NCBI GenBank assembly: GCA_003331585.1
Contig: QOPG01000001.1
Location: forward strand, 1-50,208
DNA from: Gammaproteobacteria bacterium
GTDB taxonomy: Bacteria; Pseudomonadota; Gammaproteobacteria; Steroidobacterales; Woeseiaceae
Direction of reading: 5' to 3'
Length of the DNA: 50,208 bases
This document shows, piece after piece, positions 12,406 to 39,015 of the stretch (positions are counted from its first letter, which is position 1; the number at the start of each line of letters is the position of its first letter). The notes under the pieces are model-generated. The model saw only the letters and a list, made by a program, of their open reading frames with translations. It searched no databases and was not told where the DNA came from. The position numbers and the translations under genes were made by a program.

Positions 12406-13557
12406 ATGATAAAACATTTCAAGTATTTTTCATTCTTATTGGTCATATCTTTTCTAGTGGGCTGTGCGAATAACGAAGAGACAGCAGAAGAAGCCTATAT
12501 AAATGATGTTGTCAGGGCATATGAAACTGCACAAACCGCTGTCACCTCCGGTAACTACCGAAGAGCGATTGGATTATTCGAAAATATCCAATCCAGATTT
12601 CCATTCAGTGATCTATCCACTCAGATTCAACTTGAATTAATGTATGCATATTACAAGAGTGGCGCAAAAGAACAAACGATTGATCAAACCGAAGCATTTA
12701 TAAGAGAGAATCCAACAAGCCCAAATATTGATTACGCGCTCTATATTCAAGCTCTGGCTCACTTCGAAGAAGAGCCAGATATTCTAGAAAAAACATTTAA
12801 TAAAGATATGAATAAAAGACCACCATCTGATGTTGAAACATCATTCTCTATACTCGAGAGATTGGTAACGAGATATCCAGCCAGTGATTATGCTGCAGAT
12901 GCTGAGTTAAGGATGATATATCTAAAAAATAGGTTGGCCGCCTATGAAAATATCGTCGCTGATTATTATATTCGAAGTGGGGCTTATGTTGCCGCATTAA
13001 ATAGGTCAAAAGATGCATTAGAAAAATACAATGGAGTCCCAAGTAATGAGGAATCCCTTCAGATTATGCTCAAAGCATACCAAGCGTTGGGTATGACTGA
13101 TTTAGCAAATGACACGAGAAGTGTACTCATCAATAATTACGGCAGTTCTCAAGAAAGATTCAATAGCTCTCAAGATACATTCATCGGTCCTCAAGAAACA
13201 CTCAATAGCTCTCAAGATACATTCATCGGTGCTCAAGAAAGACTCAATAGCTCTCAAGATGTATTCATAAGTCCTCAAGAAAGACTCAATAGCTCTCAAG
13301 ATACATTCATCGGTCACCAAGAAACACTCAATAGCTCTCAAGATACATTCATCGGTGCTCAAGAAAGACTCAATAGCTCTCAAGATACATTCATCGGTGC
13401 TCAAGAAAGACTCAATAGCTCTCAAGATACATTCATCAGTCCTCAAGAAAGAGAGTTATCAGAAAATAAACAAAATGACCAACCGCAAAAAGAAGCGCCA
13501 AAATTTTGGCAAAGAATCAAAACCCTCTTACCAAAAACACTAAATAGAAATAAATAG
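12406..13557 (+). CDS. bamD: outer membrane assembly lipoprotein BamD with repeat-bearing C-terminal tail
   Basis: BamD is the essential lipoprotein of the BAM complex that inserts beta-barrel proteins into the outer membrane. The signal MIKHFKYFSFLLVISFLVGC has a lipobox with Cys20. Residues about 28-245 are the TPR domain, with ETAQTAVTSGNYRRAIGLFE and RFPFSDLSTQIQLELMYAYY typical of the first repeats. The protein is 383 residues long against roughly 245-280 for most BamD. The excess is a tail of seven 14-residue repeats (residues about 247-350, consensus NSSQDTFIGAQERL) and a final charged segment. It is divergent from rluD and convergent with nadE, which ends 7 bases away. Confidence 0.92.
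   Translation: MIKHFKYFSFLLVISFLVGCANNEETAEEAYINDVVRAYETAQTAVTSGNYRRAIGLFENIQSRFPFSDLSTQIQLELMYAYYKSGAKEQTIDQTEAFIRENPTSPNIDYALYIQALAHFEEEPDILEKTFNKDMNKRPPSDVETSFSILERLVTRYPASDYAADAELRMIYLKNRLAAYENIVADYYIRSGAYVAALNRSKDALEKYNGVPSNEESLQIMLKAYQALGMTDLANDTRSVLINNYGSSQERFNSSQDTFIGPQETLNSSQDTFIGAQERLNSSQDVFISPQERLNSSQDTFIGHQETLNSSQDTFIGAQERLNSSQDTFIGAQERLNSSQDTFISPQERELSENKQNDQPQKEAPKFWQRIKTLLPKTLNRNK
13143..13454 (+). repeat. tandem 42-base coding repeat, about 7.4 copies, within bamD
   Basis: Copies start with CAAT at 13161, 13203, 13245, 13287, 13329, 13371 and 13413, an exact 42-base spacing, with a partial copy before. The unit encodes NSSQDTFIGAQERL with changes at a few residues (A/P/S/H, R/T). 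Copies are nearly identical even at third codon positions, pointing to recent expansion. Each unit is itself two related 21-base halves (SSQDTFI and GAQERLN), so the ancestral unit is seven residues. Since 42 is a multiple of three, copy changes keep the frame. Confidence 0.95.
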
Positions 13558-37272: not shown

Positions 37273-39015
37273 TCAGTTACTCGACTCTGCCAGCAAAACT
37301 GATTCAATTACATTCTCGTTTGGAGGTATAGCTAATAATTGAAGTGATTCTGAAATAATTTCAGAAAAAACTGGTGCTGCAACATCACCTCCATAGTAAA
37401 ACTCTCCTGTTGGTTCATCTATGAGAACTACTGCAACAAGTCTGGGGTTTTCTATTGGAGCAACGCCGGCAAATATTGCTCTGTATCTATCATTGCTGTA
37501 TCCGCCAGTGCCAGAAATCTTCCAAACGGTACCTGATTTTCCACCTACTCTATAACCTTCAACTTTAGCTTTTTTTGATGTTCCATCAACTACTACTTTC
37601 TCTAACATCTTGAGAATTTTTGATGCTGTTTCCTCTTTGATTATTCTTTTGCCTTCATTTTGATTGTTTTTTCTTAAAGATAGTGGTTTGTTAACCCCTT
37701 TGTTTGCTATTGCAGCATATGCCTGAGCTAACTGAATTGGGGTTACACTTATCCCATAACCATAAGACATAGTAGCTTTTCCAATTTCCCCCCATTCTGA
37801 ATGATGATGAAGTTGACCTCTTGACTCACCAGGAAATCCGTCTGTGGCATATGAACCAAACCCAAAATCACTCATCAAACCCCAGAGTTTATCTGACTCT
37901 AGGCTTAGAGCAATTCTACTCATTCCTGCATTTGATGATCGCATTAAAACAGTGGGAAGATCCACAAAACCTAGATCGCTAGCGTCACTTATATTTCTTG
38001 AGCCTATTCTGACAGGAGAAGTATCTATAATACTAGAGTTATCATAATCACCAGTTTCAATCGCTCTTGCAATTATAAATGGCTTTATACTTGAGCCGGG
38101 CTCATACATATCAATAATGGCTCGATTCCTCATTAAGGCCGGAATCATCGAGCGTCTTTTGTTATTGTCATAAGTAGGATGATTTGCAATTGCCAAGATT
38201 TCGCTATTTAAAACATCAACAAGAATTGCGCTTCCCGATATTGCTTGATTCTTGATAACTGCTGATTCAAGTGCTTTGTATGCAATATGTTGAAGTCTCA
38301 GATCTATACTTAAGGTTAAATCCATGCCAGCTTGTGGAGATTTTATAATTTCTATATTTTCTATCTGCCTCTTGTACCGATCTCTCAAAACAGTCTTCTT
38401 ACCACTTACCCCCTTTAATGAACCATCGTATTGACGCTCAATACCCTCTAAACCTTTTTGACGCTCAATACCCTCTAAACCTTTTTCATCTGATGTCAAA
38501 CCCAGTAATTGAGAGACAATCTTACCGGCCGGATATGAACGTTTGTAATTTCTCTCTAGTTCTAAATTAGGTATCTCTAGAATCTTGATCTTATTAGAAA
38601 TACTCGTCTCAACATTTTTTTTTATATAAAGAAAAGTTTTATTCCCATTTAAAGCATTTTGAATTGATTTTCTTAACTCATTAGGATCTTTTTCTATAAG
38701 AATGGCTAATTCATTGAACTCTTCAGTATTTTTATCAAATTTTTTAGGATAAATCTTTATATGATCCACTGGTATGCTTATTGCCAGAGTTTTATTATTC
38801 CTGTCTGTTATAGTCCCTCGGTAAGCGGCAATATCAACTGTCTTAAGTTGTCTTAGATTTCCTTGATGAATTAGAAAATCTTTGTTTAGCACTTGGAGAT
38901 AACTGGATCTTAATATCAAAATAATCGAGAAAAATACAAAAAAACCAAATATCCAGAATGACCTCACAATAAATCTTTTTGAGATATCTTCTCTAGTTTC
39001 TGCCCCTCTTCTCAT
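37273..39015 (-). CDS. ftsI: septal peptidoglycan transpeptidase FtsI (PBP3)
   Basis: Class B penicillin-binding protein that cross-links septal peptidoglycan with FtsW. The 580-residue protein has a short basic cytoplasmic tail, one transmembrane helix at about 18-38 (FWIFGFFVFFSIILILR), a pedestal domain, and a transpeptidase domain with the three active-site motifs: SSIK in YEPGSSIKPF, SSN in MRSSNAGMS and KSGT in VGGKSGTVWK. Residues about 178-195 contain KGLEGIERQ twice in a row from an exact 27-base duplication. The start overlaps the ftsL stop by one base (TAATG). Confidence 0.96.
   Translation of the reverse strand: MRRGAETREDISKRFIVRSFWIFGFFVFFSIILILRSSYLQVLNKDFLIHQGNLRQLKTVDIAAYRGTITDRNNKTLAISIPVDHIKIYPKKFDKNTEEFNELAILIEKDPNELRKSIQNALNGNKTFLYIKKNVETSISNKIKILEIPNLELERNYKRSYPAGKIVSQLLGLTSDEKGLEGIERQKGLEGIERQYDGSLKGVSGKKTVLRDRYKRQIENIEIIKSPQAGMDLTLSIDLRLQHIAYKALESAVIKNQAISGSAILVDVLNSEILAIANHPTYDNNKRRSMIPALMRNRAIIDMYEPGSSIKPFIIARAIETGDYDNSSIIDTSPVRIGSRNISDASDLGFVDLPTVLMRSSNAGMSRIALSLESDKLWGLMSDFGFGSYATDGFPGESRGQLHHHSEWGEIGKATMSYGYGISVTPIQLAQAYAAIANKGVNKPLSLRKNNQNEGKRIIKEETASKILKMLEKVVVDGTSKKAKVEGYRVGGKSGTVWKISGTGGYSNDRYRAIFAGVAPIENPRLVAVVLIDEPTGEFYYGGDVAAPVFSEIISESLQLLAIPPNENVIESVLLAESSN
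38431..38484 (-). repeat. exact 27-base tandem duplication inside ftsI
   Basis: The 27-base unit starting TTGACGCTCAATACCC on the plus strand occurs at 38431-38457 and again, unchanged, at 38458-38484. It encodes KGLEGIERQ twice in frame. Other FtsI proteins have a single such segment (of the type GxGIEGVE) ahead of the RKDRYGR region, so one copy is extra. Confidence 0.95.

Follow-up and report, generated by a model that had tools for sequence, protein, structure and literature searches.

In the draft genome of an uncultured marine bacterium of the family Woeseiaceae (1.31 Mb in 29 contigs, 81% complete), a gene with the appearance of bamD continues past its TPR core into a run of near-identical 42-bp units. 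BamD, an essential protein of outer-membrane assembly, is usually viewed as a compact TPR protein, and the locus raises the questions of whether the product is a BamD at all, whether the repeat is a true feature of the gene, and what a repetitive tail would do for the protein. The gene was analysed within a window of 50,208 bp, by which we mean the whole stretch of DNA under study, and consists of the following parts.

12406..13557, plus strand: bamD (yfiO), 383 codons and a stop, assigned from TIGR03302, PF13525, Foldseek and the neighbouring rluD and NAD synthase genes.
12406..12465, plus strand: lipoprotein signal peptide and lipobox FLVGC with Cys20 and Ala at +2, read from the sequence.
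12466..13152, plus strand: TPR core, residues 21-249, from the HMM match, AF2 and the alignment of relatives.
13148..13452, plus strand: 42-bp x 7.3 tandem array, about 102 residues and 14 heptads, from Tandem Repeats Finder, the unit table and 71-mers.
13453..13497, plus strand: non-repeated rest of the linker, ELSENKQNDQPQKEA, from the translation, which aligns with the charged linker end of two same-genus relatives (L009 and L010).
13498..13554, plus strand: conserved C-terminal aromatic and basic motif, PKFWQRIKTLLPKTLNRNK, kept in six complete same-genus bamD genes.

The product of this reading frame is a genuine BamD lipoprotein, as had been proposed from the sequence. It matches TIGR03302 at 7.3e-69 (231.9 bits, BamD cut-off 81.4) and PF13525 at 1.8e-57 (194.8 bits, cut-off 25), solved BamDs are matched by phmmer with a best value of 1e-47, and the best Foldseek matches of the AF2 model are all BamD, including those of E. 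coli and Neisseria; the match to 7ttc_D (E=6.8e-13, target TM 0.85) shows the TPR fold of BamD. The gene is adjoined by rluD and the NAD synthase gene. The protein shares lipobox, TPR core, HMM score and fold with BamD/YfiO of E. coli, of Neisseria and of the PDB entry 9pxg_D, although E. coli BamD is without such a tail. Cys20 of the lipobox is invariant among 31 aligned BamDs, and under the +2 rule for lipoprotein sorting the alanine that follows it predicts retention at the outer membrane. The core ends close to residue 250: the HMM match reaches residue 249, relatives align up to residues 245-248, and AF2 pLDDT is mostly >90 up to about residue 240. Genes for BamA, BamB and BamE are present in the same genome; a role of the protein with BamA in outer-membrane protein assembly is putative. 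On the other strand, an open reading frame of 114 codons with a TTG start (13102-13446, minus) was considered as a gene and set aside, having no support beyond the open frame itself, which is open because the array reads through on that strand.

Tandem Repeats Finder places the array at 13148-13452, with a period of 42, 7.3 copies, 91% matches, a score of 519 and no indels. The original prediction, which described some 100 residues made of seven near-identical 42-base units past the TPR domain at 13143-13454, is thus borne out by the repeat finder and the translation alike, and its coordinates are correct to within a few bases. The unit length is a multiple of 3, and the array is in frame throughout bamD without stops. 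In a codon alignment the seven full units have the sequence [S/P/A/H]QE[R/T][F/L]NSSQD[T/V]FI[G/S], that is, two heptads each, and in 14 of 14 successive heptads Q is followed by D or E at the next position and by F or L two further on, a perfect heptad periodicity that spans 98 residues. The two heptads within a unit are 63% identical in DNA, and both conform strictly to Q-[DE]-x-[FL], a regularity that might reflect a structural function and not spacing only. No other array in the window, or in the 436 kb of the genome sampled for this tandem-repeat comparison, comes near it in strength. It is present once in its own 1.31-Mb genome and absent from the other 106 Woeseiaceae genomes searched; these results, together with the finding of no IMG/VR contig with the unit, led us to reject a repeat that is mobile or dispersed. 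No known domain was recognised in the tail either (a Sec8_N match is under its cut-off, and PDB matches to the tail have E >0.5), and a phage-derived tail was rejected, phage-protein matches being of low identity only, with a best E of 0.002.

The tail itself is older than the repeat. All six complete bamD genes from the same genus (L009-L014; a further one, L008, runs off its contig and was left out) have a repeat-free tail of about 33-68 residues, made of a variable linker followed by P-x-F/I-W-xx-I/L-K-x-L, and since all six are tailed without repeats, the tail and its end motif are a trait of the genus. These relatives resemble the window protein in their core (79-83% identical) and their C-terminal motif, and their flanking nadE sequence aligns downstream, but their linker is shorter and repeat-free. 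The window protein still has the end motif, PKFWQRIKTLLPK, after its array, a feature missing from the original prediction, and the whole tail comes to about 135 residues. At the DNA level the end motif aligns across relatives and the linker does not. By these comparisons the repeats did not create the tail, and in the window species the linker was replaced or expanded by the array. A derivation of the unit from the linker DNA of relatives was tried, and the alignment was unconvincing. In other Woeseiaceae genera, BamD mostly ends within a few residues of position 250.

The array was said to be young, with its copies alike even at silent positions, and this holds for every silent position but one: the seven copies have a single clear silent difference (ATC/ATA), and their remaining differences nearly all change an amino acid. 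With about 9 distinct changes between copies and 1 of them silent, silent changes are no fewer than by chance (P=0.42). This is the proportion expected of unconstrained sequence, and therefore the array looks young and not visibly constrained; judged from these changes, purifying selection between the copies is not detectable. Units 5-6 repeat units 2-3 (69 bp identical, 126 bp apart), and thus growth included a multi-unit step.

We consider it probable that a young, in-frame minisatellite has recently lengthened a tolerant tether of BamD, and that the array is mainly spacer in front of the end motif. The starting point would be the pre-existing, fast-evolving C-terminal linker, in which a 42-bp minisatellite would have expanded in frame by slippage or unequal recombination, with at least one multi-unit (126-bp) step, and the tail, once some 35-65 residues long, would have reached about 135. 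A unit of 42 bp being a whole number of codons, its gain or loss would alter the length of the tether and leave the gene unbroken. The main task of the array would be to space the TPR core from the end motif. This short, conserved motif is basic and amphipathic and contains Trp, and its probable docking site is the outer membrane's inner leaflet or a partner in the envelope.

Several other explanations have to be weighed against a lengthened tether. That the array is an error of assembly, the true genome having fewer units or another number, is very unlikely. Such an error might be suspected in a fragmented draft of 29 contigs and 81% completeness in which other arrays lie at contig ends, and short k-mers would collapse an array whose longest exact repeat is 70 bp. 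With no longer exact repeat in the region, however, an assembler with k >70 could pass through the array; every 71-mer of it is unique, which argues against an artefact, and its units carry distinct variants in order. The array is also internal to a long contig, and beyond it the conserved end of bamD and the NAD synthase gene align with relatives. It is hardly credible that the tail substitutes for BamC, which wraps BamD in E. coli. BamC was undetectable with PF06804 in a genome that does encode BamA, BamB and BamE, so that the machine would depart from an E. coli-type BamABCDE in this one member; yet BamC was undetectable in 107 of 107 Woeseiaceae genomes by a search that found the E. coli control and could miss a divergent BamC, and the BamDs of the other genera are mostly tailless. 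BamC may have been lost or have strongly diverged in the family as a whole. Since it is undetectable also where BamD has no tail, its loss does not explain the tail, and the proposed link between the tail and a missing bamC or bamE fails on both counts, BamE being present. We accordingly rejected loss of either protein as the cause.

The remaining alternatives concern what the array does. A helical, coiled-coil-like rod reaching into the periplasm, with F or L at position a and A or S at d and a selected structural role, resembles in concept the long helices of TolA and Lpp and is suggested by the perfect heptad periodicity over 98 residues, by AF2 of the tail alone as a single sequence, which draws residues 3-97 as a single helix with parts reaching pLDDT 92, and by a weak tblastn match to a phage tail-needle protein. 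We regard it as unlikely. Only one position of each heptad is strongly hydrophobic and the other core position is taken by Pro, His, Ala or Ser, whereas a canonical coiled coil is hydrophobic at a as well as at d; the five models made from the single sequence are far apart (31.9 to 71.7), and AF2 tends to draw spurious helices for regular repeats. When the whole protein was modelled with 31 aligned sequences, the tail had a pLDDT of about 40-50 and was drawn largely as coil; helices at 312-332 and, in the end motif, at 367-374 were of low confidence. Mean helix propensity is also poorer in the array than in Lpp (0.55 vs 0.40). We lean towards a tether that is flexible or weakly helical. That the array is mere baggage, neutral or slightly harmful, from a passing expansion in a tolerant tail and without effect on BamD, would fit an array found in one species only, copies without purifying selection and other sporadic duplications in the same genome, but neither the reading frame nor the end motif is broken and all units keep the frame with their 42-bp period, and we hold this explanation to be quite improbable. 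A more active version of the tether is a hypermutable, in-frame length dial, in which repeat number would differ between cells, set the reach of the end motif and so tune outer-membrane assembly or its coupling to a further layer of the envelope; we give it a small chance. The analysis covered one genome of the window species. There is a precedent in E. coli tolA, whose in-frame repeat number differs between strains and alters envelope stress tolerance, and whose repeat contractions are RecA-dependent (PMC3477136). The two cases have in common coding repeats in frame in an envelope protein and a change of length without frameshift; they differ in that strain variation and an effect on stress are shown for tolA (PMC3477136), and its sequence is unrelated to the bamD array.

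How unusual such a tail is depends on which part of it is compared. Tandem arrays were sought in 146 other bamD loci (some fetched twice), and none had more than 2.1 tandem copies of anything; the survey took in 80 further loci from class- and order-level searches, mostly picked for long open frames. The array is thus without a match among the BamDs examined (0 of 146), but the accompanying statement that no tailed BamD was known does not hold, since the same-genus relatives, 9pxg_D and an alphaproteobacterial BamD (PMC3359395) are all tailed. The BamD of 9pxg_D has 341 residues, some 95 of them in a tail beyond the core, and is like the window protein in that this long tail ends in an aromatic motif, RSWWSYMTFGLFD; 341 residues is also the length of P. 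aeruginosa BamD. The alphaproteobacterial BamD has a C-terminal extension of 60 residues and is thus alike in its added tail; it belongs to another lineage, and the passage on it mentions no repeat (PMC3359395).

A Trp-rich aromatic and basic C-terminus past a variable linker was also seen in other BamDs (L099, L118, L085, L086, L159, L120, L134 and others), with ends such as RSWWKFWNRL, DDPWYKFW, ERSWWRRLFL and KESWWKLW. In 39 closed gammaproteobacterial BamD tails of at least 16 residues, six of them from the same genus, Trp clusters in the last 14 residues (36/546 vs 8/676, Fisher P=5e-7), and it does so without the same-genus tails (34/462 vs 4/492, P=1e-7), figures that serve as a guide and not as a measurement because the sample is biased towards long frames and the sequences are related. 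By this concentration at tail ends, a linker closed by an aromatic C-terminal motif is a design that recurs among BamDs. Literature searches found no paper on repeats in BamD, on a Trp-containing amphipathic BamD C-terminus or on PDB 9pxg.

What is new here is the place at which a known mutational process has expanded a tail of a familiar sort, one where it was unseen in the BamDs examined: a real but modest variant, most likely working as a longer tether. The wider point is a recurrent gammaproteobacterial layout of TPR core, linker of variable length and Trp-rich end motif, for which no paper was found, and the window species is an example of how little limits the growth of the linker. Should the number of repeats vary, nature would have set up at this locus a test of tether length in an essential assembly machine, much like tolA in E. 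coli; even a neutral array would suggest that the C-terminus of BamD tolerates about 100 extra residues.

Other repeats occur in this genome and in a relative. A 42-bp x 3.2 array coding EEAKAEEPAAEEPK lies at the start of another contig of the same genome (C10; L181 1-133), in the tail of a gene just upstream of rimM that is probably rpsP (S16), and being at a contig end it may be longer than these 3.2 copies. A 21-bp array of SGSSGGM repeats is found at contig ends both in this genome (start of C5; L176 1-133) and in the relative G002 (L203 1-91), which has comparable arrays. Given these other in-frame arrays, the bamD array is the most striking case of a general tendency and not a singular one. 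Genomes of water-column Woeseiaceae are small (PMC12175321). Within the window, ftsI (37273-39015, minus strand) carries an exact 27-bp x 2.1 tandem duplication at 38431-38486, which gives KGLEGIERQKGLEGIERQYDGSL in PBP3/FtsI; the 27-bp stretch is single copy in five same-genus relatives where readable.
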